Assembly: GCA_005778225.1 (NCBI GenBank)
Contig: SXPC01000088.1
Span: 1 to 37,355, forward strand
Direction of reading: 5' to 3'
From: Planctomyces sp.
GTDB taxonomy: Bacteria; Planctomycetota; Planctomycetia; Planctomycetales; Planctomycetaceae
Length of the DNA stretch: 37,355 nucleotides
This document shows, piece after piece, positions 2,309 through 27,581 of the stretch. The first letter of the stretch is position 1; every line of letters starts with the position of its first letter. The position numbers and the translations under genes were made by a program. The notes under the pieces are model-generated. The model was given only the letters and a program-made list of their open reading frames with translations. It had not been told where the DNA came from and searched no databases.

Positions 2309-2413
2309 TGGCCGCCGAAACGCGAAAGTTTGATCGGCATCCTCTCGCAAACGGTTTCAAAACAGATAAAATGGTGGACGTTTCAATATAACTTCCAACC
2401 CGCTCAACTCAGC

Positions 2414-2430
2414 TGTGACAGGATGTCACA
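2414..2430. promoter_or_regulatory. Palindrome TGTGACA-gga-TGTCACA upstream of/overlapping alternative start of hybrid kinase gene (candidate operator)
   Basis: Perfect 7-bp arms with 3-nt spacer, read directly from sequence. Function is inferred. Confidence 0.45.
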
Positions 2431-2476
2431 TCGTGAATATTCTACCGCCACGCCACCAACGGCGAATCGGACTTCC

Positions 2477-5400
2477 ATGACCTCACTGGTGCTACGCGAC
2501 TGGCTCACCTCAAACTCTGATCCTCTCGAGCCATTTCGCATTCTGGCCGAGACGCTTCCTCAACTTGTCTGGACCGCCCGCCCCAACGGCGAACTCGAAT
2601 TCGTCAATCGACGGTGGATTGAATACACGGGTTTCGATTCCGACGACGCACAGTCAGGTGCCTGGAAAAAACTCATTCATCCTGAAGACTTTCTGGAGGC
2701 TTCCGCTCATTGGGAACATTCCCTCAAGCACTTTACCCCTCTCGAAACACAAAACCGTTTCCTCGGCAGAAACGGCGAGTATCGCTGGTTCCTTATCCGT
2801 GCCGAGCCACTCCTCGATTCGAATGGCCAGCCCGTCATGTGGTTTGGCACCTGCACCGATATCCACAACGAGCGTTCCGAACAACACCGTCTGAGAGATC
2901 GCTGCCAAACGATCGTTGAAAACGCCAACGACGGTGTCCTCGAAGTCTCCCTTTACGGGACGATCCAGTTTGCTAACCGACGCATGGCCGAACTCCTCGG
3001 TTGCCCGGTCGATGAACTCGTCGGCAGATCGGCACTCGACTTCCTTTTCGAGGAAGAACAACGTCGGGCCCGTATCCGCCTTGAAGCCCGTCGGGAAGGC
3101 CACGGCGAACGCTATGAAGCCCGCTGGCGACGAGCCGATGGTTCCGAAATCTGGATGCACACTGCCAGTACCCCTAAATACGACGCGAATGGCGAGATCA
3201 TCGGCTCCTTCGGTATCTTCACCGATCTGACCTCACTGCGTCATTCGCAAAGCCTGCTCCAAGTCTCCGAACAACGCTTCAAAACCTCAATCGATAACCT
3301 CATCGACTGCTTCGCCATCCTTTCATCCATTCGTGACGACGCCGGTCAGATCGTCGACTTCAAATTCGAGTACCTGAATCCCAACGCCTGCAAAGTCCAT
3401 CGAATGACGTTCGAGGAGCAGATTGGCCACGGCCTGCTCGAACTCATGCCTGTCCATCGCGACAACGGCCTCTTCGACGCCTACAAATCCGTCGTTGAGA
3501 CCGGCAAACCTTACACCGACGAACATCAGCACATCGAAGAACTCGAATCAGGCCACAAGATCTCCCACTGGTTTGAGATTCGTGTCACTCGCATGGACGA
3601 TGGCTTTGTTGCTTCCTGGCGAGACATCACCGCTCGCAAAACTGCTCAGCTCAAGCTCGAAGCCATGATCGAGCCCTATCGCAACCTGGCTGAATCACTC
3701 CCGCAACTCGTCTGGGTCAGCGATTACGCAGGCAACATCACCTATTACAACTCGAAAGTTGAGAACTATTCCGGCATCATGAAAGACAAGGACGGTACCT
3801 GGAAATGGCAACCCGTCCTTCATCCAGATGATCACTCTGTGACCATCCAAGCTTGGCAAGCTGCTCTCAGCACTGGCATCATCTACGAATGCGAACACCG
3901 CATCTCCATGAACGACGGCTCGTATCGCTGGCATCTCAGCCGGGCGATCCCGATGGGAGAAGATTACACCCGCCAATGGTTCGGCACCGCCACTGACATC
4001 CATGCCATCAAGCTCGCAGAACGCAACGCCCGTGAACACCATTCTGCTTTAACGCTCAGTGAAGGCAGATTCCGCGCCGCCGTCGATGCCGTCGGAGGGC
4101 TCCTCTGGACAAACTCCTCAGAAGGCCTCATGCATGGCGAACAGCCTGGCTGGGCCACCTTCACAGGCCAAACATACGACGAGTATCAAGGCTATGGCTG
4201 GGCCAAAGCCGTCCACCCCGAGGACGTCCAGCCTTCTATCGAGTCCTGGAAAAAAGCGGTCGCCCATCAATCGACTTACATCTTCGAACATCGCCTCCGG
4301 CGTCACGACGGCGTTTACCGCTTCTTCGCCATCCGCGCTGTTCCCGTCCTCAATGAAGACGGCACAATTCGTGAATGGGTCGGCGTCCACGTCGACATCA
4401 CCGAACAGCGAGAAGCCGAACAAGCCCTCCGAGTCAGCGAGGAAAAGTTTCGACTCATCGCTGACACCATGCCTCAGATCGTCTGGAGCACTCGTCCGGA
4501 CGGTTATCACGACTACTTCAACAAACGCTGGTACGAATACACTGGCATGCCTCTTCCCCATGAACCCGGCGGGGAATATGACCCGCATGAATCCGGACAG
4601 GGCTGGAACTGGAAAGAGTATTTGCATCCCGACGACTACGAGCCCTCCGTCCAACGTTGGCAGGAGTCGCTTCGGACCGGCGAACTTTACACGATCGAGT
4701 ATCGTTTTCGACGTACAGATGGTGTCTATCGATGGTTCATCGGACGCGCCCTCCCTCTCAGAAACGAAGATGGCGAAATCACCCGCTGGTTCGGAACCTG
4801 CACCGATGTGGAGGACGTGAAAGCTGCCGAGAATGCCCTGCGTGACGCCGACCGTCGTAAAGACAACTTCCTTGCCACCCTGGCTCACGAGCTTCGCAAT
4901 CCCCTCGCCCCCATCCGCAGCGCCACCGAACTCCTCAAGCTGACCTCGATCGACGATCCCGTCATCGACGAAATCCGCGACGCCATCGACCGCCAGGTCA
5001 CCCACATGGTCCGTCTCATCGACGACCTCCTCGACATCAGCCGCATCACCAACGGTAAGCTCCAACTTCGACATGAGCCTGTCATTCTTCAGCAGGTTCT
5101 TCAGTCAGCGATCGAAACCTCCATGCCTCTGATCACAGCAGGCCAGCATCAACTCAATATCCAGACTGTCAAAGAACCGATCCCGCTTGTGGGGGATCCC
5201 GTACGACTCGCGCAGATCTTCTCCAACCTCCTCACCAATGCCGCCAAATACAGCGAACCCGGCGGCGACATCTCCATCATCGTCAACCGTCTCGAATACG
5301 AAGTCTGCGTCATCGTCCGCGACCACGGCATCGGCATCCCACCCGAACACCTCCCCCGACTCTTCGAGATGTTCTCGCAAGTCCAGGCGGCCGTCGACCG

Positions 5401-5956
5401 CTCACAAGGCGGCTTAGGGATCGGCCTCTCCCTCGTCCGTGCACTCGTCGAGCACCACGATGGCACCGTCGAGGCACACAGCCAAGGCCTCGGCACCGGC
5501 AGTGAATTCACCGTCCGACTCCCGATTCGCCAACATGATGTCCCCGTTCCAATAACCGTCGCAACCCCCGCTCAACCCATCCCGAAACAAACCGTTCCGA
5601 AGTCTCGCCGAATCCTCGTCGTTGACGATAGCCCCACGATCGCCCGCATGCTCTCAATGCTTCTGGCCACCAAAGGCCACGAAGTCGAAACCGCCAGCAA
5701 CGGCGAAGAAGCCCTGTCCGCACTGCAGTCAAGCGTCTACGACCTCGTCCTCATGGACATCGGCATGCCCATCATGAACGGCTACGAAGCCGCGAAACGC
5801 GCCCGCGCCGCCGGCATCAAGATCCCCATGGTCGCCCTCACCGGCTTCGGCAGAGTAGAAGACAAACACGCCGCTACGCAAGCCGGCTTCAACGCCCACC
5901 TCATCAAACCGATCAGCAGCCAGGCGCTCGATCAGGTGCTGGGGCAGCTTCCATGA
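2477..5956 (+). CDS. Multi-PAS hybrid sensor histidine kinase (about 6 PAS, HisKA, HATPase_c, REC)
   Basis: Repeated PAS signatures (LPQLVWTARPNGELEFVNRRWIEYTG; MPQIVWSTRPDGYHDYFNKRWYEYTG), H-box AHELRNPLAPIRSATELL, G boxes GIGIPPEHLPRLFEMF / GLGIGLSLVRALVEHH, receiver ILVVDDSPTIARML...DLVLMDIGMPIMNGYEAA. Start uncertain: ORF opens at 2330, alternative ATGs at 2423 and 2477. Confidence 0.9.
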   Translation: MTSLVLRDWLTSNSDPLEPFRILAETLPQLVWTARPNGELEFVNRRWIEYTGFDSDDAQSGAWKKLIHPEDFLEASAHWEHSLKHFTPLETQNRFLGRNGEYRWFLIRAEPLLDSNGQPVMWFGTCTDIHNERSEQHRLRDRCQTIVENANDGVLEVSLYGTIQFANRRMAELLGCPVDELVGRSALDFLFEEEQRRARIRLEARREGHGERYEARWRRADGSEIWMHTASTPKYDANGEIIGSFGIFTDLTSLRHSQSLLQVSEQRFKTSIDNLIDCFAILSSIRDDAGQIVDFKFEYLNPNACKVHRMTFEEQIGHGLLELMPVHRDNGLFDAYKSVVETGKPYTDEHQHIEELESGHKISHWFEIRVTRMDDGFVASWRDITARKTAQLKLEAMIEPYRNLAESLPQLVWVSDYAGNITYYNSKVENYSGIMKDKDGTWKWQPVLHPDDHSVTIQAWQAALSTGIIYECEHRISMNDGSYRWHLSRAIPMGEDYTRQWFGTATDIHAIKLAERNAREHHSALTLSEGRFRAAVDAVGGLLWTNSSEGLMHGEQPGWATFTGQTYDEYQGYGWAKAVHPEDVQPSIESWKKAVAHQSTYIFEHRLRRHDGVYRFFAIRAVPVLNEDGTIREWVGVHVDITEQREAEQALRVSEEKFRLIADTMPQIVWSTRPDGYHDYFNKRWYEYTGMPLPHEPGGEYDPHESGQGWNWKEYLHPDDYEPSVQRWQESLRTGELYTIEYRFRRTDGVYRWFIGRALPLRNEDGEITRWFGTCTDVEDVKAAENALRDADRRKDNFLATLAHELRNPLAPIRSATELLKLTSIDDPVIDEIRDAIDRQVTHMVRLIDDLLDISRITNGKLQLRHEPVILQQVLQSAIETSMPLITAGQHQLNIQTVKEPIPLVGDPVRLAQIFSNLLTNAAKYSEPGGDISIIVNRLEYEVCVIVRDHGIGIPPEHLPRLFEMFSQVQAAVDRSQGGLGIGLSLVRALVEHHDGTVEAHSQGLGTGSEFTVRLPIRQHDVPVPITVATPAQPIPKQTVPKSRRILVVDDSPTIARMLSMLLATKGHEVETASNGEEALSALQSSVYDLVLMDIGMPIMNGYEAAKRARAAGIKIPMVALTGFGRVEDKHAATQAGFNAHLIKPISSQALDQVLGQLP

Positions 5957-6119: not shown

Positions 6120-9100
6120 TCATTGAGCGACCGCGTGAATATCGATAATCCGGTCAGGATACCTGCGTCTCGCATTGCTCTTGTAACCGTATGGAATTTC
6201 GCTCGACCCGATGTTCAGCGACGATATCTGTGGCTCATTCAGAAGCCGGTCACATGCGGACTCAGAAAGCCGGCAGGGTGTGATCCACAAGTCTTTCAGT
6301 TTTGGAAACGCGAGTATCGTTTCCAGACAATCGTCGTCAATCGCGTCACTGTCAGCGACTTTCACGCCACCAACCATGAGTTTTGTCAGTTCACGACAAC
6401 CAGACAATTTGAGAAACCCTGATTGACTGATCGCAGCCTGCTGAAGATCGAGTTCTTCCAGTGATCCCAGCTTCGAAATATGGTCAATTGCTCGGTCAGT
6501 CAGTTTCGGGGTATTCATACCTACCCACATCGATTTGAGGCGAGTCAAACCCACCAAATGACGGAACCCGTCGTCAGTAAATGAATTTCCCTGAAGGGCA
6601 AGTTTTTCCAGTTTCGGCAGCGTTCCGAATGTCTCTAATGAGCCGTCTCCAAGCTTCGCATGACCAAAATGGATGTCTTTCAAATTCTCTAAGCCACGTA
6701 GCGAACGAATGCCCTCATCCGTCAATTTTTTCGCATCCCAGACGATAAGACGCTCCAGCAGTTTCATCCCACTCATGTATTTCATCGAAGCATCGGTCAC
6801 TTGACCGTCGGTGAGTGCCAGTTTTGTCAGTGAATTGCATTTTGCAGCCCACTGCATGCATTCGTCTGTTTGGGTTTGTGAGTTGTCCAGCCGAAAATTT
6901 CTCGTTTTGTCATCGTAATAGACCATATTGATCGTCTTGATGCGTTTGTCATCATTGAGTTCATACCAGCCGCCCAATCGACGAATCGCTTTGGCGACCT
7001 CCACTTCGTCTGCCACAGGCAATTCGAGTTCCACAGCCTGGGTCTTGGGGTTGCCAGGAATCTCTTCTGCATGATAGCGAAGGTCGAGACGTGTCGTTTC
7101 GCCAGCGCGAACGTCAATTCCTTTGGTCCATACATCCCAGTGTTCAAAATGTCTGGCGGTATTTCGATCACCTGGCACTCTGGGAAGATACGTGCCTGGT
7201 GGCAGACAGGTCCGAAAGCTTCCATCGCTTTGGACGGTCATATTTCTTACCCAGACAGGTCGACTGGCAATCGTTGAGTTCCGTTCAATCGAAATCGTTG
7301 TCTTGACTCCTGGAGTGATCTCCAAGTGAGGCTTACCAGTTGCATGGTCGACGATGCTCCCCTCGATCCATCCACCTTTGGTCAATGCAACCTGGACCTC
7401 TGTTTTCACTTCACCATGCCCTGAAAACTTGAAGTCGACTGGAAAAGAAATATGGTCCGCGGAATCAACGCTCAACGAGTATTCGCTGGCTGGCAATCCG
7501 TTGAATCGAAATCTTCCATTCTCATCGGTGACCGCTTGCCCCTCTTTTCCTGTCCAATTCAGCTTGCTCAGTTTGATCGGACAATCACGAATCGGCGATT
7601 GATCGGTTTGATTGACGACAACTCCTTCGACGACATTCTCTTTGAAAAGAACGATGTCTAGTTCACCAGGGATTTGCTGGTAGTAAGCCTCGACGTGAGC
7701 ATACCCGGGATGATCGATGATCAACGGACTCGCAATTTCCATCCAACCTGTCCCATTCCCCTGATCCACAGATTTTGCATTCTTCTGATTCCAGATCGGG
7801 AGATCATCGATTCGGTATTCTCCGTTACGATTGGTCCTGGCTCTGCGGCCAAGCCCATCTGTTTCTGGCCATTCGTTAAATTTTTGCGCGACCAGGACAT
7901 CTGCGAGAGGAAGTCCCTGTTCATCCATGACTTTTCCCGACAGGACGCCGGATTTCCTCATTGTCAATTCGAGGTCATTCGACTCTATGGAGTTATAGCC
8001 AATCGGAGTCATTTCCGTTGCATACCCTTCCTTGGTTAACTGCAACTTGTAGAAGCGATCAAAAAACTTTGTCTGCGGCTGTGACTCAATGAGAATTCCA
8101 CGATCCCCTGAAGGTGGTTCGAGGTCTGAGAATAGAAAAGTTCCTTCATCGTTTGAGAGTGTCTCAGCGGCAAAAGTCTGTGTCTTAGAACTTTCCGTCC
8201 ATTGGTATAACGTCGCTTTGACCCCTCGAAGGGGTTTCTCTTCTCCGTCACGAATCGAACCGGAAACACTGTAGGCGTTCTCATTCTCAGCAGGGGCTTC
8301 AACTTCATCCGCTTCTTCAACAGTCGGTGCCAATTCCCCCATTAGATTTTCGCCAATCCGCTCCGTGCGAATGATGAACGGCTCGACTGCGCCACTCACC
8401 GGAACATTCACGATCCGATGCGCACTGCCAACGGGCATCACCAGTTGATATTCGGGATGCTCCAGACTGCCATAGACGTAAGTGATGCCTGGTAAACTCT
8501 CAAAGCTCGTGAGTCCATCTTCGTCAGTTGTTCTTGTCCAAAGCTTCACAGAGGCATGATGTCGTTCTAATTGCTGTGCCTGAATCTCATTCTCATCAAC
8601 TCCGATCCAATCTTTAGCCGCACTCCACGAATGCCCCAACAAAAATGAGCCATGATGATAGAAAGTCAGATTAGGGTACACGCTGACCTTAGCACCTGTC
8701 AGCGGCTTCCCCTCCGGATCCAGGCATTTCAACGTGACACTGTTCGTTTTCTCCATCGGAATGAACACACCATCCGACTGGCTCGAAGAAACCAATTGCG
8801 GCCAAAGACTGACACCATCGATACCTTGAAGTTGTTTCAAATAGGGCTCGAATTCTGGATCATTTCGTAACTCCTTGAGTTTCGGCTGCGACGACCACCA
8901 GCCATCGCACATCGCCACCAACTGAATCGGCACATCTCGCGGCAGCGAATCGAACTTGAATGCCCCATCCGGCTGTATCTCAACAGCGTCAGCAAATGAC
9001 AATCGCTTCTGGTTATTGGGATCACTCGAATCGAGGTAGACACATTGAGCCAGCACAGAACCATTTTTAACGGGTCGAGGAACCGCCTCATCGATCCTTC

Positions 9101-12100
9101 CCGACATCGAATGTCCAGGACTCAGCAAGACATCCTTGACGATTCGCAGTTCTCCCTCCTTTATCCAGTCGCTGGCAGAGATCACGTTACTGAACAGTAT
9201 CTGGCCCGATTCCGTTCGATGTGCAACTTGCGCAATCCTCGGCTGATCGTCGCGTCGACTTGATACCAAGGTATTTGGCGGCTGAAAACTAAATTTTTTA
9301 TCGCCTCTCCAGAGATCGCTGAACATGACATGTGTCGACATCGGCCTGACCGGTGTGTTCTCTCCTGCAAACGAGATCTGGTACACGACGCCGCGCTGCA
9401 ATGGAACCCTCTGCCGCATCAAATATACCGGAGCATCTCGTCTGTTCTGCTTCAACAGATCGAGTTCATGATTCTTCGCTGCAAACTCAGGATGCTCAAC
9501 AAGAATCGAAAGCACCGACGTCCTCATCTGCTCGACGACAAACTCCGGATAATCAATCGTGATTTCACCTTTCTCATTCGAGACATCGTCTGGCTTACTA
9601 CCATGAAATTCTTCTGACCAGGTATAAGAACTTCCCCTGTCAATGAGGGTCCTCAGCCCGAGAATATCAACCTTCGCCCCCTGCACAGGTTTCCCGTCTT
9701 CATCATAGACCTCGAGCACAATCTGCCGACGCTCTTTCTGCCGCGGTGTGACTTCGACGGGGGTTTCCACGACTGGCTTTTCGTCGGTCGCCGGATTCTT
9801 AGTCTCGGCCTGCATCTCTGCAACCGCTTGATTCAGCGGTCTTGCAACCATCTCCGCGTTATGAGAAGTCTTTCGCTCCTGCTCTCCAATCGCCTTCCCA
9901 TCCTTTCGTTGCGCCTTGCGCACCTTCACTTCAAACTCTTCTGTCCGCCCCGGAACAAAATCAAACGTTGCTCCAGCCGTCCCGATGAAGTCATACCGAT
10001 ACCCATGCAGAAACGGCCCATGATCCAGCCCGAAGCCGAGCGTCTGCTTCCCGGCTGGGAGATGAACAATAATGACACCATCAGCATCACTGACGGGGTG
10101 ATAAGACAGAGGGTGCCCGACTGCCCGGTCGTACCTGTCTTCGAAGTAGCGAACTTTTCCGTTTCCGTGTTTCTTCCAGATACTGAAGCCCTCGACTCCG
10201 TGATGCGTATCCACGTCAACGATGCGAAGCTTCAAGACCGCCGCAGGGACTAGAGAGACTTTGAAAATTTCGTTTGATTCCGTGTCGACATCTATTGATG
10301 CCCTGGCAGGCAGATAGGGAACCTCTGGCGATAGAAATGAATAAACGACATTTTCTCCGCGCCTCGCGATAAGGGAAATTCGCCCGTCGCGATCTGTGAC
10401 AGCATGATCACGACCAGAAGTCCATGTACGATGACAATACGCCAAGAGTCCGGCGATTGGGCTTCCAGTCACTTCATCGGTGAACTCGACAGTGATCGGA
10501 ATCGCCTCTTGGAGAGTTAAATCTACGGCTTTGCTGTAGAGGTGGTCCTTTCGTTCCGGATCTGATGGTCCCTCGAGAGTCACTTCGTAGTACTGGCGTG
10601 TTACATATCCTTTTGCTTTGATTCTGAATGTTGCGTGGCAGTTCGATGGCAGGTCTTCGAACACAAATTCGCCGTTGCTGTCTGTTGTGATCTGTGACGA
10701 GCGTGTAAATGGTGACCATTGACTGCCAAGAGTTCGGAATTCCGCATCAGGAGAAGTCCTTGGACTCTCCACCTGTTTTGCCAGACGAATCAGCTCAACG
10801 ACAGCACCTTCAATGGGCTGGTTGCTTTCGTCGTGAATAACTCCATTTAGTTTTTTAGGTTCGGAAAACGCCAGCGTGATGTCGAATTCCTGTGGTGTCG
10901 GATGCTTAACCAGAGGCGTCGCTGACTCATCGGAGGTCATCCAATTCGCATCTGACCTCAGAGAGAGTCGTGGTTCAAATGCGACAGCATAATCGGGATG
11001 CGTTCCGTAGACCTCAAACGCCCCTTGTATTTCACCCGGTCCGTTCATCGGCAAAGCGACGCTCTCGAAACGATAATGCCCCTCATCATTTGTTGTTGTC
11101 TGAGCGAGCAGCTTCTTCTCGGTCCGGACCGATGTGACAAAGATGGTCGCGCCCGAAATCGGTTGACCATCCAAATCGACAGCACGCCCGGATACACGCA
11201 GATCAAAGAGACCATCTTTGAAATGCGGCGTTGGGGCAGGGTTCTTGCCTGTTAAAATAACAGTGACTGGCTCGCTGTTTATTTGAGACTCATTTGGTAA
11301 TGCATCCAGAGTAATCTCGTTACGCCAAATTCCAGGATGCGAAACGCTCATCACAATATCACAATCACCCGGCAGTGAACGAATCCGGAACTTGCCATCT
11401 GCCTGACTATAAAAAGCAGCCATCACTGGGAGTTGACGGATCACGTTCATGAGATTGTCTTCGCCTCGTTTAATTGACTGCAACTGCACCTTGGCCTGGT
11501 CAATCGGAGTTCCATCCGCCGCAACTGCCTGGCCTTCAAAGACGCGTTCCACTGGAAACGAAAGTCGAAAGTCTCTCTGCGTCTGATCCAAGGCAAGACG
11601 ACTCACGGCAATGCCGTAGCCTTCTGCGATTCCGACCAGGTGCATACGTGGAACGTCTCGTAACCGCGATAACGTCACATGATCGAAGTGAAACTGACCA
11701 TCTTTGTCAGTGACGACCTCTCCAACCAGTCCATCAGGAATTGATGACGAATAGAGACTGATCTTCGCGCTGGAGACCGGTTTTCCTTGAGAGTCGACTG
11801 ACTGGCCACGAATCGAGACAGAACCATCCTCATGCTCGACGACAGCATAGCTGGCTTCGTTTCTGTCGGGGATCAAACGAAAGATCATCAACGAGATCCC
11901 AGCCAGACATGAAAAAATCAGCAAGCGAGTCGCCATCGTTCGCGAAACAGCGAATCGGTTCACCGTTCGATCGAGAATCGTCTTCAGTCGCAACTCGATA
12001 CTCGGAGTCGACACGATCGCCACGCCGACTGCGGGCCACATCCGTCGCAGGCGTCCCTGTGAAACGACATCCAGTAATGAGCGGGCGTAGTCCGCTGCAC

Positions 12101-13025
12101 AGACGCCGGAGTTCAAAACCAGATCGTCACAGGCCTGTTCCCTGAATCGCTCGATCTGGCGTAACGCAAACCACAACAGTGGCTGCGGCCAGTAGATGAC
12201 TTTCGTCAACTCCACGACGACCTGCCAGAGCGGATCGCTACGTTTCACATGGGCCAATTCATGCAGCAAGACTGACCGCTGCTGCTCGATTGGCCACGAC
12301 GTGATGGTCTCGGGCACGATAATCACCGGCTGCCACAATCCCCAGACCATGGGCATCGTCTCCGGGGTCGAAAGGCGAACATCGACTGATCGCCTCAATC
12401 GCAAAGAGCTTCTCAACGAGGCGACCAGCGTTACAAGCGGCTCATCAGTCATCATGGGCAGCTGAGAAGTTTTTCGCCACAACATAAAGACAGAGGAGAT
12501 GAGTCGTAGCATGAGTAAGCACGCGATACTTCCCCAGAGGACGACTACCCATTTCAAAACGGCAGTGAAACGCCAGAGTATTGCAGATGGCATCTCGACA
12601 CGGTCAATCGGCCTAAAGATTCGAGGTTCGCCTCCCACGATGACTGTCTCTTCACGGGTGCGAACTCTCACGTTCGGTGTCGAAACAGGATCCGGAAAAG
12701 GATTCGTGGGAATACGAGTCTGTGCAGGCTCAGTTGAAGCAGCCTGATTCTTCGTGACGGTATCGGGGGGATTGTGAGTCGCTGCGATCGCGCGTTGTTC
12801 GGTTGGGGATGGATCGAACGACACCATGAACCACTCTTCCGGCAACATGTTCCATCCCGGCATCCACGCCTGTCCGACCGGCAGGACCAGCAGCGACAGA
12901 CAGGCCAGCTTCCAAACCAGATGCCTCGCCCCCGCAGACTGCTTTCGTATTGCATAGGCAACGATTGTCGCCAGCACGAGAACGACCGTCGATTTCCAAC
13001 CCAGTTCCAGAAAGTAAGTCGTCAT
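6120..13025 (-). CDS. Giant M56 (BlaR1/MecR1-like) metallopeptidase with many carboxypeptidase-regulatory-like domains and C-terminal leucine-rich repeats, 2301 aa
   Basis: N-terminal TM segments; zinc motif LLHELAHVKRSDPLWQ; about 11 modules of the form GxVxDxxGxPIxGAxVxL...TDxxGxFxFxxLP; C-terminal LRR block (LTDEGIRSLRGLENLKDIHF...LEKLALQGNSFTDDGFRHLVGL). Confidence 0.9.
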   Translation of the reverse strand: MTTYFLELGWKSTVVLVLATIVAYAIRKQSAGARHLVWKLACLSLLVLPVGQAWMPGWNMLPEEWFMVSFDPSPTEQRAIAATHNPPDTVTKNQAASTEPAQTRIPTNPFPDPVSTPNVRVRTREETVIVGGEPRIFRPIDRVEMPSAILWRFTAVLKWVVVLWGSIACLLMLRLISSVFMLWRKTSQLPMMTDEPLVTLVASLRSSLRLRRSVDVRLSTPETMPMVWGLWQPVIIVPETITSWPIEQQRSVLLHELAHVKRSDPLWQVVVELTKVIYWPQPLLWFALRQIERFREQACDDLVLNSGVCAADYARSLLDVVSQGRLRRMWPAVGVAIVSTPSIELRLKTILDRTVNRFAVSRTMATRLLIFSCLAGISLMIFRLIPDRNEASYAVVEHEDGSVSIRGQSVDSQGKPVSSAKISLYSSSIPDGLVGEVVTDKDGQFHFDHVTLSRLRDVPRMHLVGIAEGYGIAVSRLALDQTQRDFRLSFPVERVFEGQAVAADGTPIDQAKVQLQSIKRGEDNLMNVIRQLPVMAAFYSQADGKFRIRSLPGDCDIVMSVSHPGIWRNEITLDALPNESQINSEPVTVILTGKNPAPTPHFKDGLFDLRVSGRAVDLDGQPISGATIFVTSVRTEKKLLAQTTTNDEGHYRFESVALPMNGPGEIQGAFEVYGTHPDYAVAFEPRLSLRSDANWMTSDESATPLVKHPTPQEFDITLAFSEPKKLNGVIHDESNQPIEGAVVELIRLAKQVESPRTSPDAEFRTLGSQWSPFTRSSQITTDSNGEFVFEDLPSNCHATFRIKAKGYVTRQYYEVTLEGPSDPERKDHLYSKAVDLTLQEAIPITVEFTDEVTGSPIAGLLAYCHRTWTSGRDHAVTDRDGRISLIARRGENVVYSFLSPEVPYLPARASIDVDTESNEIFKVSLVPAAVLKLRIVDVDTHHGVEGFSIWKKHGNGKVRYFEDRYDRAVGHPLSYHPVSDADGVIIVHLPAGKQTLGFGLDHGPFLHGYRYDFIGTAGATFDFVPGRTEEFEVKVRKAQRKDGKAIGEQERKTSHNAEMVARPLNQAVAEMQAETKNPATDEKPVVETPVEVTPRQKERRQIVLEVYDEDGKPVQGAKVDILGLRTLIDRGSSYTWSEEFHGSKPDDVSNEKGEITIDYPEFVVEQMRTSVLSILVEHPEFAAKNHELDLLKQNRRDAPVYLMRQRVPLQRGVVYQISFAGENTPVRPMSTHVMFSDLWRGDKKFSFQPPNTLVSSRRDDQPRIAQVAHRTESGQILFSNVISASDWIKEGELRIVKDVLLSPGHSMSGRIDEAVPRPVKNGSVLAQCVYLDSSDPNNQKRLSFADAVEIQPDGAFKFDSLPRDVPIQLVAMCDGWWSSQPKLKELRNDPEFEPYLKQLQGIDGVSLWPQLVSSSQSDGVFIPMEKTNSVTLKCLDPEGKPLTGAKVSVYPNLTFYHHGSFLLGHSWSAAKDWIGVDENEIQAQQLERHHASVKLWTRTTDEDGLTSFESLPGITYVYGSLEHPEYQLVMPVGSAHRIVNVPVSGAVEPFIIRTERIGENLMGELAPTVEEADEVEAPAENENAYSVSGSIRDGEEKPLRGVKATLYQWTESSKTQTFAAETLSNDEGTFLFSDLEPPSGDRGILIESQPQTKFFDRFYKLQLTKEGYATEMTPIGYNSIESNDLELTMRKSGVLSGKVMDEQGLPLADVLVAQKFNEWPETDGLGRRARTNRNGEYRIDDLPIWNQKNAKSVDQGNGTGWMEIASPLIIDHPGYAHVEAYYQQIPGELDIVLFKENVVEGVVVNQTDQSPIRDCPIKLSKLNWTGKEGQAVTDENGRFRFNGLPASEYSLSVDSADHISFPVDFKFSGHGEVKTEVQVALTKGGWIEGSIVDHATGKPHLEITPGVKTTISIERNSTIASRPVWVRNMTVQSDGSFRTCLPPGTYLPRVPGDRNTARHFEHWDVWTKGIDVRAGETTRLDLRYHAEEIPGNPKTQAVELELPVADEVEVAKAIRRLGGWYELNDDKRIKTINMVYYDDKTRNFRLDNSQTQTDECMQWAAKCNSLTKLALTDGQVTDASMKYMSGMKLLERLIVWDAKKLTDEGIRSLRGLENLKDIHFGHAKLGDGSLETFGTLPKLEKLALQGNSFTDDGFRHLVGLTRLKSMWVGMNTPKLTDRAIDHISKLGSLEELDLQQAAISQSGFLKLSGCRELTKLMVGGVKVADSDAIDDDCLETILAFPKLKDLWITPCRLSESACDRLLNEPQISSLNIGSSEIPYGYKSNARRRYPDRIIDIHAVAQ

Positions 13026-13028
13026 CGA

Positions 13029-13424
13029 TCACTCCCCTTTCTTGTCTTGAGAACGGGCATGCTGGTCGATCAATTCTTTGAGCTTTAGCACATCCTCATC
13101 GCTCAGCTTCGCATTCGGCTTCTCCAGATGAGTTGCGAGCGCCGTCGTCATTGATCCCTCGAAGAAGGTCTCTAACACTTGCTTGAGCGCGTTCAAGCCT
13201 GCTTTCACCCGCGACTGCTTGGGAAGATAGATGAACTCCCTGCCCACCTTTTCCCGCTTGATATGTCCCTTCTCCTGGAGAATTGCCAGCATCCGACGGA
13301 CAGCCATCGGCGTCGGCGACTCCTGCAACTTCTGGCAGATTTCGAGCACGCTCATCCGCTGATTCGCAAACAGCAGATTCATAATCTCGCGCTCGCGTCG
13401 CGAGAGCTTAACAGGGCTCGGCAT
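13029..13424 (-). CDS. BlaI/MecI/CopY family transcriptional repressor
   Basis: MPSPVKLSRREREIMNLLFANQRMSVLEICQKLQES...VRRMLAILQEKGHIKREKVGREFIYLP winged helix. Start set at the ATG at 13424. Stop is 3 nt before the M56 gene start, with a GGGGAG ribosome-binding site overlapping the stop. Confidence 0.9.
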   Translation of the reverse strand: MPSPVKLSRREREIMNLLFANQRMSVLEICQKLQESPTPMAVRRMLAILQEKGHIKREKVGREFIYLPKQSRVKAGLNALKQVLETFFEGSMTTALATHLEKPNAKLSDEDVLKLKELIDQHARSQDKKGE

Positions 13425-13475: not shown

Positions 13476-13513
13476 CGCTACATTATTAGCGTCTTGCCAG
13501 CAGGCAGGCAAGA
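13476..13513. promoter_or_regulatory. Two adjacent inverted repeats upstream of blaI-like gene: CGCTA-cattat-TAGCG (13476-13491) and TCTTGCC-agcaggca-GGCAAGA (13492-13513)
   Basis: Read directly. Located 52-89 bp upstream of the repressor start. Operator role is inferred. Confidence 0.4.
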
Positions 13514-13675
13514 ACAAAAGCTAAAAACGTAGCGGCACAGTTCTGGTGGCTCGATTCGCACATCGACAAAAATTATGGCAACACGTTACTTAGCACTGTC
13601 ATACAACTACAAAATACCGCATTCTGATAACGCTGACATCGACGTAATCTTCCGACTCCAAGAAGGCAGTCCCCC

Positions 13676-15307
13676 ATGACCACTCCCATCCTCATCATCG
13701 GCGCCGGACCCGTCGGCCTCACGATGGCCGCTGCCCTCAATCATTACGACGTCCCCTGTCGCATCATCGATAAGTCGACTGCTCCCAGCGACAAGTCAAA
13801 AGCACTCGCCGTCTGGTGCAGAACCATGGAACTTCTCGACGGCCTGGACCTTGCCGACCGCTTCGTCCAGACCGGTCTGAAACTTACCGGCGGGAGCATG
13901 TTCGCAGGCGGGCAACGTCTCGTCCATCTTGACCTCACCAGCAGCGAAAGCAAGTTCGGCTTCCCTCTGATGATCCCTCAAAACCAGACCGAGCATCTGC
14001 TCCTGGAACACCTCGCCTCCAAAGGCATCACCGTCGAGCGTCAGGTGGAACTGCTCTCCATGACCGACACTGGCGCTGAGGTCGACTGCATCCTCCGTTA
14101 CCCTGATGGTCGGGAAGAAACTGTCTCATCTCCTTACGTCGTCGGATGCGACGGAGCCCATAGCACCGTCCGTCACTCCCTCGGCATGGAGTTCACCGGA
14201 CACGCCGAGCCCAATGACTGGATGCTCGCCGACGTCCACATCGAAGGCCCTCTCGCGAAGGACGAAGTCAGCATCTACTGGCATGAGACCGGCGTCGTCG
14301 CGTTTTTTCCCATCGATCACAACCGCTTCCGCGCCATCATGGACCTCGGAGCCTCAGGCAGTCACGTCCTCCCTTCCGAGTTGTCACTCCCCGAAGTTCA
14401 GGCTAAGGTCGACCTGCGCGGTCCCGGCGGGTTAACTCTCTCCGACCCCATCTGGCTCGCCTACTTCCGCATCAACGAACGCAAAGTGTCCAACTACCGC
14501 CAAGGCCGAGTCATGCTCGCGGGCGACGCCGCCCACATCCACAGCCCCGCCGGAGGGCAGGGGATGAACACCGGCATGCAGGATGCATTCAACCTCGCCT
14601 GGAAACTCGCACTGATTCACCAGGGCAAAGGCCAACCCGAACCACTCCTCGAAAGCTACTCTCTCGAACGCAGCGCCGTCGGTGACGAAGTCCTCAAAAA
14701 CGCCGCACGCTTCACCACCATGGCCACCCTCCGCAGCCCCGTCGCCCGCTGGTTGCGAAACCACATCGTCCCCATCCTCGGCTCCTTCCACGTCGTCAAA
14801 GACAAGATCCGCAACGACTGGTTCGAACTCTCCATCAACTACCGCAGCAGCCCCCTCACTGGCGAATGCTGGAATTCCCTCGCTAACGAAGTCCAGGCTG
14901 GCGACCGCCTCTGTGACACTCCTATCGCATCCCTCACGACCGGTCATCAAACCAACTTGTTCTCTGCTATCCATAGCAATCGTCACACGCTTCTGCTGAT
15001 CCCCGGTTCCACCGACGCAAAAGAGCTCTCCCAATTAACCCACCTCGCCACTCAGGCAAGCGAAATCTTTCCTGATGCCCTCTCAACACATATCATTCTC
15101 ACCCCAGACACAACGCCTGACACGACGCCGAATCTCGATTTCCCGGCCTGGCTCGACATCGACAACACACTTCACCACAAGTTCAATGCCATCCACCCGA
15201 CCCTCCTCCTCATCCGCCCCGACGGCTATATTGCCTATCGCAACCAACCCGCTGACATCTCCCACCTGCTCAGCTTCATGGACACCTATCTCATCCGCAA
15301 GAAGTAA
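13676..15307 (+). CDS. FAD-dependent monooxygenase (PheA/TfdB/UbiH-like aromatic hydroxylase fold)
   Basis: GAGPVGLTMAAALNHYDVPCRIIDKS Rossmann motif; DG motif VVGCDGAHSTVRHSLG; GDAAHIHSPAGGQGMNTGMQDAFNLAWKLAL. Confidence 0.92.
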   Translation: MTTPILIIGAGPVGLTMAAALNHYDVPCRIIDKSTAPSDKSKALAVWCRTMELLDGLDLADRFVQTGLKLTGGSMFAGGQRLVHLDLTSSESKFGFPLMIPQNQTEHLLLEHLASKGITVERQVELLSMTDTGAEVDCILRYPDGREETVSSPYVVGCDGAHSTVRHSLGMEFTGHAEPNDWMLADVHIEGPLAKDEVSIYWHETGVVAFFPIDHNRFRAIMDLGASGSHVLPSELSLPEVQAKVDLRGPGGLTLSDPIWLAYFRINERKVSNYRQGRVMLAGDAAHIHSPAGGQGMNTGMQDAFNLAWKLALIHQGKGQPEPLLESYSLERSAVGDEVLKNAARFTTMATLRSPVARWLRNHIVPILGSFHVVKDKIRNDWFELSINYRSSPLTGECWNSLANEVQAGDRLCDTPIASLTTGHQTNLFSAIHSNRHTLLLIPGSTDAKELSQLTHLATQASEIFPDALSTHIILTPDTTPDTTPNLDFPAWLDIDNTLHHKFNAIHPTLLLIRPDGYIAYRNQPADISHLLSFMDTYLIRKK

Positions 15308-21146: not shown

Positions 21147-21572
21147 CTAAAATTTATTGATCCACTCGCGTGATAGCGTGCATGATTTCGTGATCGTTTT
21201 GCCCTTGGTCAATTTCCCCACCACCCAGGTACTGGACGCGACCGGAATCGAAACCGACACAGTAATCTGCTGCGTTTGTCCTGTGATGACCGAAGGTGTG
21301 ATGGTGACGGTCTTCTGCTTCACACCAATCAGATTCAGGTAGTGATTAACTTCTGCAGTCACTGCCGCCGCCGTCGCTCCTGGAAGGATGCCACGTCGAG
21401 CCCCTTCATAAACAGCGATCTCGGCGTTGTTTCGAATCATGCTCATCCGACTGAGTTCGATTCCGCTGAAAATGACGAAGAACGCCACCGGCGCAATCAC
21501 CGCAAACTCCACGACCGTCGCACCACAACGCTTAGACTTGGCTTGTAAAGTAGTCGATCGCAGGATTCGCAT
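21147..21572 (-). CDS. TadE-like pilus assembly/pseudopilin family protein
   Basis: RCGATVVEFAVIAPVAFFVIFSGIELSRMSMIRNNAEIAVYEGARRGILPGA. Confidence 0.88.
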   Translation of the reverse strand: MRILRSTTLQAKSKRCGATVVEFAVIAPVAFFVIFSGIELSRMSMIRNNAEIAVYEGARRGILPGATAAAVTAEVNHYLNLIGVKQKTVTITPSVITGQTQQITVSVSIPVASSTWVVGKLTKGKTITKSCTLSREWINKF

Positions 21573-21629
21573 AGGAAAATCTCGATAACGGGTGGTTCAC
21601 AAAATCGCGAGAGCCAGAATTGGCCGGAA

Positions 21630-22847
21630 CTACTCAATCAGGACCACAGGCAACGAAAGGGCCAGTCGACGAAACGCTTCCTTTAATTCGTCTTCACTAC
21701 TGGCGAAGTAATGGGTTCCGCCAGTCAGTGTTGCAATCTGTTTCATCGTTCCCTGGTCCGTGCCTTCGAGAAACGAAATGGTGTGAATGATGATCCCAGA
21801 GTTCTTCGCCGTCTGGGCTGTCGTCAGCGGATCCCCCCCTTGGTTCCATTGCCCATCGCTCATCAGAATGATGACCTTCTGAGTCATCGGACGAATATTC
21901 TTCGCTGTCAGAACAGCGATGGCTTCCGTCAATCCGGATGACATATTCGTCCCGCCGAGCATGATGTCATTGCCCAGCGACGTCACATCTCCGGTGATCT
22001 TTGTGTAGTCGGTTGTCAGTTCACGGTTCCGGGTGACCGCTGCAAATGTTCGTTTCGTCAGGTTGCCTTCGTAGTTGGAACTGGTGATCTGAGATCCCCA
22101 GGTGACCAGCCCGATCTGTGGGGTTGTTTCGAGTTGTTTGAGCGTCTGCATAAATGTTGAAATTGCGTTTGACAGGCTCGACCATCGACTTAACGCCGGA
22201 TGCGGTGAACTCGCCAGATGCTTGTCGCTGTCAGACCTGAGGTTCTTAACAAGAATTCGTGATGCCACCAGCGGCGGATAATCCCAATCATTCCCTGAGC
22301 GATCGAAGCACATGGAATGCGAACGGTCCAGGCAGAGGACGATATCCTGCTCAAATTGAGCCGCGGTCGCAATTTCTTTCGGTGTGAATATCTCAGTACC
22401 AACCAGCTTACCGAAGAATAAGCCGACCGGGGGATTCCCGCTCGTCCCGTCGAGCTTCGGCATCACTCGAACAGAGGTAAAAGGAGTTTTCCCGTTTTGG
22501 AATGACCAGGAACCATCCGGATTCATGGTCGAGTTGCCAATTTCGATATCATTACTTCTCAACACCAGCGAGCGTCCTGCGACTTTATTCTGGCTGGCAA
22601 CATGAATTGCCGCCTCAATCGCCTTCTGCTGATTCTGAGTGCGTGAAAGAGCCTCAGTCCCCGCTTTGGCAGCCGCATCGCTGGCGGCGCGCAAGTCCGT
22701 CTTCGCCAGTTCCATCCATGCAACATCGACCGTAAAGCTGACCATGATCAGCATCACAACCAGCAGCGATGTCATGAGAACAAGCATGGCACCGAGTCGG
22801 TTCGACTGATTGGTCATCAGCTCGGTTGGAACGAAGAACTTCTTCAT
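21630..22847 (-). CDS. TadG-like VWA-domain protein
   Basis: N-terminal TM (LGAMLVLMTSLLVVMLIMVSFTVDVAWMELAKTDLRAASDAAAKAG); VWA MIDAS DIVLCLDRSHSM...LGGTNMSSGLTEAIAVL...KVIILMSDGQWNQGGD. Confidence 0.88.
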   Translation of the reverse strand: MKKFFVPTELMTNQSNRLGAMLVLMTSLLVVMLIMVSFTVDVAWMELAKTDLRAASDAAAKAGTEALSRTQNQQKAIEAAIHVASQNKVAGRSLVLRSNDIEIGNSTMNPDGSWSFQNGKTPFTSVRVMPKLDGTSGNPPVGLFFGKLVGTEIFTPKEIATAAQFEQDIVLCLDRSHSMCFDRSGNDWDYPPLVASRILVKNLRSDSDKHLASSPHPALSRWSSLSNAISTFMQTLKQLETTPQIGLVTWGSQITSSNYEGNLTKRTFAAVTRNRELTTDYTKITGDVTSLGNDIMLGGTNMSSGLTEAIAVLTAKNIRPMTQKVIILMSDGQWNQGGDPLTTAQTAKNSGIIIHTISFLEGTDQGTMKQIATLTGGTHYFASSEDELKEAFRRLALSLPVVLIE

Positions 22848-23263
22848 AGACGAATCATCCGAATAGTCGATTCAAAGTAGCCACCTTTGAACAGAAAGTT
22901 GATAGGCAGCCGATTATCTTTTTCGATCACGCGAACACGCATCGAAATCTCCGTCCCGCGAAGCGTACTTGAGTTAATCGCCGGCGTCACATCGACGTCA
23001 TATTTCGTGATCCCGCGAGCATTCAGGATCTCTTTGACGCGCAGTTCCGCAGACGCCTGTGTCCCGCCGCTGGCAGTCGCGACACGGGCTCCTTCGTAAG
23101 CAGCTGTCGTTGCAGCCTGACGCATGTAGATCCCGTTGGCAGCTTCAATCGACATCAGGAGAAGCGAGAGCACCAGCGGCAAAAAGACAGCAAACTCCAC
23201 CATCGCGCCGCCGCGACGGGAGTGATTTTGAGCATTGAATTTCAGAACACGTCTGTGTCGCAT
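22844..23263 (-). CDS. TadE-like protein
   Basis: MRHRRVLKFNAQNHSRRGGAMVEFAVFLPLVLSLLLMSIEAANGIYMRQAATTAAYEGARVA. 4-bp overlap with the VWA gene. Confidence 0.87.
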   Translation of the reverse strand: MRHRRVLKFNAQNHSRRGGAMVEFAVFLPLVLSLLLMSIEAANGIYMRQAATTAAYEGARVATASGGTQASAELRVKEILNARGITKYDVDVTPAINSSTLRGTEISMRVRVIEKDNRLPINFLFKGGYFESTIRMIRL

Positions 23264-23303
23264 GTTCGCTGAGTCATTCAGGAAGAAGGCGGAATTCGAA
23301 ACT

Positions 23304-23364
23304 GTGCACGGTTTGGCACCGGGCACCGTTTGGCACCGTGCACTCAACCTTATGGTGCAAACCG
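23304..23364. promoter_or_regulatory. Iterated/palindromic GGTGCCAAACCG-like boxes upstream of TadE operon
   Basis: GTGCACGG(23304-23311)...CCGTGCAC(23336-23343) perfect inverted arms enclosing two direct copies of GTTTGGCACCG (23311-23321, 23328-23338), plus an inverted near-copy GGTGCAAACCG at 23354-23364. Confidence 0.5.
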
Positions 23365-23677
23365 ACGCACACCTGAGGTTTCTCCCGTCTGGCAACAGGA
23401 AATGTCACGTTCGGGCGAACTTTGACGGTTATGCCGATCTGCGAAACATGTCCTGATGATTCAACAGTAACGTCTTTACGATGACATTTTGTCTTCTCGA
23501 GCTCCGCTCGTCAGAGTCCGGCACATGCCCGACGCCTCTTCGTTACGATCAATACATCAGGAACAGCCTTCAAAGGCGACGTTCCCAGTCGCGCGTGGTC
23601 GATGTCGTGACACTTGAGGACAGAGGCATTCAAACACGGAAGTAACGCGTCCTGTGACGGACGTCTGGAGATCAGGG

Positions 23678-26591: not shown

Positions 26592-27581
26592 ATGCCCACC
26601 CCCACAACTCCCATCACCCATTACTTCCCCGTCGACCCGCCCCCTTTCAAACCCTCGCCCGGCCTGTTCCGTCTCGACCGCGATTTCGGAAACGGCCCCG
26701 CTGATCAGCAACTCACCCACCTCGATCAAGATTTCTGGCGCTACCGCAACAACAAACTCAACGCGAGACAAGAACGCCTCTCCAAATACGTCGCCCACCA
26801 TCACCTTTCTGACGAAACCCAGTCCGCCACCTGCAAACGTCTCATTCAGATCTTCACCACCGAACACCCAGACTGGTTTACCCATGAGGGTGACATCAAC
26901 ACCACCTGCCAACTGACCTGCCACCTCACCGAAGAAACTCTGACTTTCGTTAACGGACACCTCACCGGCACAACCCCAGAAGTCACTCCCGCTTACATCC
27001 ACGGCATCGACGCTCTCGTCTCCCAGATTCAGGAAGACCTTGCCATCGTCCAGCGTGATGGCCCGAACGACTGGCTCGCCGCACTCCACCTCTGCGCTCC
27101 GGGTCACTGGGCGGCAGAAGACAAAATCGGCCTCGACTTCGCCCTCGTCCACCAACCTGTCCCCGGCATCGAATCCATCGTCAAAGCACAGACCTCGATG
27201 GTCCGCGCCATGATCGACAAAAGCCCTCTCGTCCGCTTCGTCTGGGGCTTCGGCTCCGACAACCGCTTAAACCACCATCCCCAACCTCCCCCCGAATGGG
27301 ACGCTGTCGACTGGAAAGGCCGACGTCTCCTCGAAGGGCAGGGGGATGAACCACCGTTCTACCTCCGCATCGAACGTCAGACCATGCAGGGCCTCCCAGA
27401 AGTCAACGCCAGTCTGTTTTTCATCCATGTCTACCACTTAAGTGGCAAAGACATCCTCGCTAACCAGGAACAGCGCAAAAAATTGCGTGAGGCAATCACA
27501 ACAATGGATCACCTCACGCTCGTTTACAAAGGACTCGCCGAGTCCAAAGATCAGTTACTCAACTTGCTTGAATCAAAGTAG
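26592..27581 (+). CDS. DUF3445 family protein (heme-dependent oxidative N-demethylase-like)
   Basis: GHWAAEDKIGLDFALVHQPVPGIE...RFVWGFGSDNRLNHHP...FYLRIERQTMQGLPEVNASLFFIHVYHL matches the remembered DUF3445 pattern. No search run. Confidence 0.75.
   Translation: MPTPTTPITHYFPVDPPPFKPSPGLFRLDRDFGNGPADQQLTHLDQDFWRYRNNKLNARQERLSKYVAHHHLSDETQSATCKRLIQIFTTEHPDWFTHEGDINTTCQLTCHLTEETLTFVNGHLTGTTPEVTPAYIHGIDALVSQIQEDLAIVQRDGPNDWLAALHLCAPGHWAAEDKIGLDFALVHQPVPGIESIVKAQTSMVRAMIDKSPLVRFVWGFGSDNRLNHHPQPPPEWDAVDWKGRRLLEGQGDEPPFYLRIERQTMQGLPEVNASLFFIHVYHLSGKDILANQEQRKKLREAITTMDHLTLVYKGLAESKDQLLNLLESK

Follow-up and report, generated by a model that had tools for sequence, protein, structure and literature searches.

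The window, a 37,355-nucleotide stretch of Planctomyces sp. DNA, carries on its reverse strand two adjacent genes, one for a BlaI-type repressor and one for an M56 (BlaR1-type) membrane metallopeptidase of 2301 residues (Table 1). The repressor matches Penicillinase_R (PF03965) in Pfam over residues 7-121 with E 1.7e-23 and 83.6 bits against a curated cut-off of 22.6, and its match in the PDB is MecI (1sd6, E 2.7e-5). The blaI reading frame begins with the ATG at 13424 and ends with the TGA at 13029-13031; the M56 ATG, at 13025, comes 3 nt after this stop and is preceded by AAAGGGGAG, which overlaps the end of blaI. Residues 155-350 of the M56 protein match Peptidase_M56 (PF05569) with E 2.2e-30 and 106.3 bits, the cut-off being 31. 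A sequence-only reading of the window had proposed the BlaI-M56 pairing, the 3 nt spacing and a ribosome-binding site lying over the end of blaI, and the profile matches, coordinates and sequence agree with it on each point.

Several other genes surround the pair. The gene at 2330-5956 (forward strand), convergent with that of the M56 protein, encodes a hybrid histidine kinase of 1208 residues in which several PAS domains are combined with a receiver domain. Genes for TadE/Tad-type pilus assembly, of which one encodes a VWA domain, occupy 21147-23395 on the reverse strand, and a protein resembling the alpha subunit of haem-dependent oxidative N-demethylase (PF11927) is encoded at 26592-27581 on the forward strand. 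A FAD_binding_3 monooxygenase (13676-15307, forward strand) is divergent from blaI and shares its upstream region. This monooxygenase was considered as a BlaI target and not adopted, because no homologue was found at any other surveyed BlaI-M56 locus; the genes next to the pair are in general not conserved at other BlaI-M56 loci.

Table 1. Positions of genes, predicted regulatory sites and protein segments of the BlaI-M56 locus in the window; residue numbers refer to the 2301-residue M56 protein.
Feature	Positions	Strand	Evidence or remark
Second, weaker operator-like site (CCGCTACGTTTTTAGCTT)	13518..13535		8.4-9.0 bits
Sigma-70-like promoter TTGCCT-18-AATAAT, -10 inside dyad	13482..13511	-	9/12 matches, 0.3 expected in shuffles; weak alone
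Predicted BlaI operator dyad CGCTA-N6-TAGCG, 52-67 nt upstream of blaI ATG	13476..13491		Held-out matrix 16.3 bits; class-wide motif
blaI-type repressor gene, 131-residue winged-helix protein	13029..13424	-	PF03965 Penicillinase_R and PDB MecI 1sd6
M56 (BlaR1-type) membrane metallopeptidase gene with giant ectodomain, 2301 residues	6120..13025	-	ORF and Pfam
Predicted TM helix 1, residues 2-25	12951..13022	-	AlphaFold2 model and hydropathy
Predicted TM helix 2, residues 31-54	12864..12935	-	AlphaFold2 model; under 1.6 hydropathy cut-off
Low-confidence loop, probably outside, residues 58-146, BlaR1 EL1 position	12588..12854	-	pLDDT ~50; position by comparison with PMC9834060
Long helix containing predicted TM helix 3, residues 147-188	12462..12587	-	AlphaFold2 model and hydropathy
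Zinc-protease domain, probably cytosolic, residues 189-351	11973..12461	-	PF05569 and BlaR1 fold match
HELAH zinc-binding motif, residues 255-259	12249..12263	-	H, E, L and H invariant in 23 rows; equivalent to BlaR1 H201-H205
Third zinc ligand E296 (BlaR1 E242)	12138..12140	-	Alignment and BlaR1 structure
Predicted TM helix 4, residues 362-381; chain should be outside afterwards	11883..11942	-	AlphaFold2 model and hydropathy
Four CarboxypepD_reg modules, residues ~400-840	10506..11828	-	Every slice significant
Block B, residues 594-1043	9897..11246	-	Common to an 892-residue BlaI-linked M56 protein (L224) and a free-standing 556-residue ORF (L223)
Block C, residues 1088-1570, no Pfam family	8316..9764	-	Homologous free-standing proteins of ~480-590 residues; all-beta AlphaFold2 model
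Further CarboxypepD_reg modules, residues ~1588-1930	7236..8264	-	Slice scan and local HMM
Block D, residues 1833-2226, last modules and LRR	6348..7529	-	Free-standing 529-residue homologue L205, 31% identity, E 1.9e-55
C-terminal leucine-rich repeat block, residues 2041-2290	6156..6905	-	Closest in PDB: F-box/LRR proteins

The protease was compared with S. aureus BlaR1, in which His201, Glu202, His205, Asp210, Glu242, Asp246 and Tyr261 are zinc ligands and auxiliary residues (PMC9834060). Alignment to the BlaR1 structure maps these onto His255, Glu256, His259, Asp264, Glu296, Asp300 and Tyr313 of the window protein, all seven of which are invariant in an alignment of 23 rows, the window protein and 22 relatives. 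The HEXXH...EXXXD zinc site and the conserved aspartate and tyrosine of the M56/BlaR1 family are thus present, and conservation at these positions supports a protease that is intact. The AlphaFold2 model of the N-terminal part is confident overall (mean pLDDT 81), the exceptions being a single long loop and a short segment around residue 330. When this model was used to search the PDB, all six fold matches with E<=0.001 were S. aureus BlaR1. The chain restricted to the transmembrane and protease region (8exr_A) gave a TM score of 0.62 by target length and an rmsd of 3.7 over 184 columns; full-length BlaR1 entries align to the model with high rmsd. The earlier description of a BlaR1-like M56 peptidase with a HELAH motif and flanking transmembrane helices is therefore upheld by profile, alignment and fold. 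Basic residues occur in the loop at 26-35 and acidic residues past helix 4. The predicted topology fits that of BlaR1, with the protease inside and everything beyond residue ~385 outside.

The M56 protein is without a recognisable form of the C-terminal penicillin-binding sensor of the BlaR1/MecR1 receptors. No transpeptidase or penicillin-binding domain was matched in Pfam by the whole protein or by overlapping slices, and the NCBIfam model blaR1_generic scores 78.5 bits against a cut-off of 400, the match being confined to the protease. A transpeptidase hidden in the unannotated stretch of the chain was considered and rejected, since neither profile nor fold matches place one there: the AlphaFold2 model of block C is almost all beta (pLDDT 83) and no transpeptidase is found among its 50 listed fold matches. 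Scanning of 20 neighbouring ORFs revealed no beta-lactamase or penicillin-binding protein gene. Both absences, of the sensor and of an adjacent resistance gene, had been anticipated from sequence.

What follows helix 4 includes CarboxypepD_reg modules, a family that the 2301-residue protein matches in Pfam with E 6.9e-62. A local HMM identifies ten modules at E<0.01 and an eleventh at 0.039, close to the approximately 11 of the sequence-only reading. That reading had placed them in one long run; the modules are present but the run is not uniform, as slices over residues ~836-1700 taken alone gave no Pfam match, and block C, a distinct unit predicted to be all-beta and pilin/Cna-B-like, makes up part of this stretch. 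The leucine-rich tail was correctly recognised, with LRR_8 and LRR_14 matches in Pfam, LRR_8 reaching E 1.3e-7 in a scan of the tail by itself.

No orthologue of the whole 2301-residue protein was found in homology searches with the whole protein or with the ectodomain alone, and it is as separate blocks that the ectodomain has relatives. Block C aligns with free-standing proteins at 22-30% identity across the aligned block, with E values down to 1e-50 in the ectodomain-only search. Several of these proteins, and the block D homologue L205, have apparent signal peptides as judged by eye. In the stretches retrieved, neither BlaI nor M56 lies close to the free-standing copies of block C or block D. 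The comparisons support the view that the ectodomain is a mosaic, parts of which exist elsewhere as free-standing and apparently exported proteins. An origin by fusion of once-adjacent genes was considered and set aside, as in those same stretches the free-standing homologues do not lie beside BlaI-M56 pairs. The block C family itself (L206, L208-L213, L215-L231) comprises unnamed planctomycete proteins of about 500 residues, sometimes encoded in tandem (L220, L222), with a shared block for which there is no Pfam model.

The best Foldseek matches of block C are pilin shafts and similar Cna-B-type rods. TM scores are only ~0.15-0.2 by query length, so that the likeness to Gram-positive pilin shafts and Cna-B/SpaA modules is one of module type only. 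In our reading, beta-sandwiches form the stalk of the ectodomain and the LRR block its tip.

Upstream of blaI there is a predicted operator dyad, and related dyads recur at other BlaI-M56 loci. Among 118 blaI upstream regions TGCTA-N6-TAGCA occurs in 28 and GCTA-N6-TAGC in 42, compared with none or one in mononucleotide shuffles, and with an iterated matrix 87 of the 118 have a site that scores more than 8 bits, versus 0-5 in shuffled sets. A held-out matrix, trained on loci of the named collection only (some planctomycetes included), identifies sites in 26 of 41 regions from the source genome and its relatives as opposed to 2.9% of random windows from the same loci, with the caveat that a few Gimesia pairs occur in both training and test sets, which are not fully independent. 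Applied to the window, the held-out matrix gives the dyad upstream of blaI the highest score of any site in 37 kb. A single sigma-70-like promoter was found in the blaI upstream region, and its -10 box lies within this dyad. The operator consensus of BlaI/MecI in Staphylococcus and Bacillus is TACA-N2-TGTA, from which the TGCTA-N6-TAGCA of the class differs. The second blaI of the source genome (L034) is not preceded by the TGCTA-N6-TAGCA form; an ACTAA-N4-TTAGT dyad of similar geometry, a variant of the class operator, was read there by eye.

Few copies of the dyad exist in the rest of the source genome. Exact YGCTA-N6-TAGCR sequences occur at three places in the 5.1-Mb draft, one being the window operon, in a search by patterns that miss degenerate targets. 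As candidates for a wider regulon we considered a site on contig C136, which falls inside an aldo/keto reductase gene, a site on C272, which has a GC-rich centre and is not flagged by the matrix, and sites with two mismatches, which scored lower and lie mostly inside ORFs. None was retained, and the pattern searches of the draft identified no target gene beyond the operon itself. The Gimesia genomes G101 and G152 each have one exact site just upstream of a BlaI-M56 pair; of their other seven sites four are inside long ORFs and three are between genes. The third genome searched (G041) contains no exact dyad, though M56 pairs are present. Because the predicted dyad overlaps the -10 box and is rare elsewhere in the genome, these patterns suggest that the operon is an autoregulated, self-contained cassette with no obvious wide regulon.

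Is the arrangement peculiar to this locus? The source genome has two M56 and three BlaI matches in profile searches. Its second pair (L034, G000:C199:1-7000) is built alike, the M56 protein having 893 residues, a HEWSH motif and CarboxypepD_reg modules. The third BlaI (L190, G000:C27) is near a 306-residue ORF (3298-4218, reverse strand) that appears M56-like by eye and has no PF05569 match. In a sample of 99 genomes, the source genome and relatives, M56 matches are found in 76; the highest count is 22 M56 genes in a single planctomycete genome, and open frames range from a few hundred to 3704 residues. Among the matches listed, a scan of GTDB adds Verrucomicrobia, Acidobacteria, Gemmatimonadetes, Armatimonadetes, Latescibacterota, Zixibacteria, Poribacteria and others. 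Where the surveyed loci include enough upstream sequence, blaI is directly upstream of the M56 ORF and on the same strand in 117 of 120 cases from many phyla; these loci were picked by M56 similarity and partly by length, so the fractions describe the sample and not a phylum. Verrucomicrobial records include BlaI-linked M56 proteins of more than 3000 residues (L065, L066 and L107, 10532-19882 of an Akkermansia muciniphila record), and the C-terminus of that in L107 matches only PSCyt2 (DUF1549).

The regions that follow the protease vary widely. Among 31 relatives of the window protein the C-terminal families are CarboxypepD_reg (19), WD40 (6), PSCyt2 (5) and LRR (4), and in 66 proteins of the named collection CarboxypepD_reg (14), HEAT (9), TonB_C (9) and TPR (8); the counts cover the 25 commonest families listed, so that an occasional class member ending in a penicillin-binding domain could escape them. 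A few C-termini contain an S41 processing protease or thioredoxin-like domains (NCBIfam), and in most related pairs the ectodomain is much smaller than that of the window protein. The window's own combination of M56, CarboxypepD_reg and LRR recurs in L152, L153 and L177, while L165, which the tree places closest to the window's M56 (42% identity), has a PQQ/BamB-like propeller in place of this ectodomain. On a tree of M56 domains the CarboxypepD_reg label requires 20 changes, compared with 28 for shuffled labels, and well supported branches force no fewer than 10 of the 20; the tree is a quick one with long branches and the change counts are rough. The label is thus clustered, yet has been gained or lost many times. 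The architecture in the window does not stand alone: it belongs to a very large class whose ectodomains are exchangeable. The sequence-only reading had the pair, the BlaR1-like protease, the missing sensor and the large ectodomain right; it missed the class, the operator dyad and the rarity of that dyad.

The pair shares with the BlaR1/MecR1-BlaI/MecI systems of Staphylococcus and Bacillus the coupling of repressor and protease, the M56 fold, the zinc ligands and auxiliary catalytic residues, a predicted four-helix membrane scaffold and, by prediction, a dyad operator at the promoter. It differs in having a multi-domain ectodomain of ~1900 residues in place of a recognisable penicillin-binding sensor, in having no linked resistance gene and in the scissile motif of the repressor.

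S. aureus BlaI is cleaved at an Asn-Phe bond in the dimerisation domain. The equivalent position is His-Leu in the window BlaI and mostly Ala-Leu or Leu-Leu in the class. Thermolysin-like enzymes favour a hydrophobic P1' residue, and such a residue is retained in the window BlaI although the Asn-Phe site itself is not. That site may be a staphylococcal feature and not one that defines the whole BlaI/MecI family. Since the scissile motif is not conserved, cleavage of the window BlaI at this point is not assured.

A core without a penicillin-binding domain has precedent, as the BlaI/BlaR homologue of Mycobacterium tuberculosis is already known to have an M56 protease and no such sensor (PMC9834060). 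That homologue has no equivalent sensor domain, in contrast to the giant ectodomain of the window protein. Planctomycete ECF sigma factors and Ser/Thr kinases with WD40 repeats are likewise lineage-expanded regulators that carry repeat domains (PMC8567305); their core differs from the proteolytic BlaI-M56 pair considered here.

We consider that the locus encodes a self-regulated, two-gene transmembrane switch of the BlaI/BlaR1 type, acting by proteolytic derepression on an input other than beta-lactams, and give this reading a probability of about two in three. We infer the following sequence of events. BlaI would bind the predicted dyad over the -10 region and repress its own operon. Four helices would anchor the M56 protein in the membrane and its zinc site would face the cytosol; past helix 4, some 1900 residues would extend outside as a transthyretin/Cna-B-like beta-sandwich stalk tipped by the LRR block. 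The ectodomain would change in response to a ligand, a surface or a partner protein, proteins and polymers of the cell surface being the likeliest candidates; the signal would cross the helices and the protease would cleave or otherwise inactivate BlaI. Derepression of blaI-M56, and perhaps of a few unlinked genes, would result.

The main rival, which we regard as unlikely, makes the ectodomain the effector, so that the M56-BlaI pair would adjust the amount of a surface stalk, adhesin or scaffold in reaction to the state of the membrane or of assembly. The near confinement of the dyad to the operon's own promoter, the existence of free-standing, apparently exported blocks unlinked to BlaI-M56, the resemblance of block C to pilin shafts and the functional-looking S41 protease, thioredoxin and TonB units of some related M56 proteins are all compatible with such a role, whereas the much smaller ectodomains of most related pairs and the precedent of BlaR1, which is one of sensing (PMC9834060), argue for a receptor. 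Less probable again is a protease directed at a membrane or envelope protein other than BlaI, with BlaI inactivated only indirectly; loss of the S. aureus cleavage motif would be consistent with this, and the near-universal coupling to blaI is against it. That the protein is an ordinary beta-lactam sensor with a penicillin-binding domain too diverged to recognise is suggested by the role of BlaI and M56 in beta-lactam signalling among staphylococci and bacilli (PMC9834060), but we judge it very improbable given the failure of whole protein and slices to match such a domain, the restriction of the low-scoring blaR1_generic match to the protease, the beta-rich model of block C, which is unlike a transpeptidase, and the lack of a beta-lactamase among the neighbouring ORFs scanned. 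Just as improbable is that unrelated genes were joined in assembly, or that the gene is decaying, as a draft of 305 contigs and blocks that match separate genes elsewhere might suggest: a single open frame crosses all the block junctions, GC stays at 0.48-0.55 throughout the gene, and other genomes have M56 with CarboxypepD_reg and LRR and open frames of up to 3704 residues.

We return to the switch and to the class in which it belongs. On balance we favour, with less assurance than for the locus itself, the view that BlaI-M56 pairs in Planctomycetes, Verrucomicrobia, Acidobacteria, Gemmatimonadetes and other groups make up a general class of modular systems for transmembrane signalling. A conserved proteolytic core and operator would be combined with freely exchanged ectodomains, much as histidine kinases are with their sensor domains, and beta-lactam sensing in Firmicutes would be one specialised case. 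No published account of planctomycete BlaI-M56 systems or of the class was found in the literature searched, the coverage of which largely omits subscription journals, and the class with its exchangeable outside parts is apparently undescribed as such.

This class-wide picture is of more interest than the single locus. The common operator motif and the exchangeable ectodomains make the proposal testable, by exchanging ectodomains on the core to search for ligands and by use of the dyad as a reporter for many pairs. BlaR1-type signalling has been treated mainly as a mechanism of antibiotic resistance. If the proposal is true, it would be a widespread route by which environmental bacteria convey outside events to transcription by proteolysis, and the beta-lactam receptors would be one branch of it.
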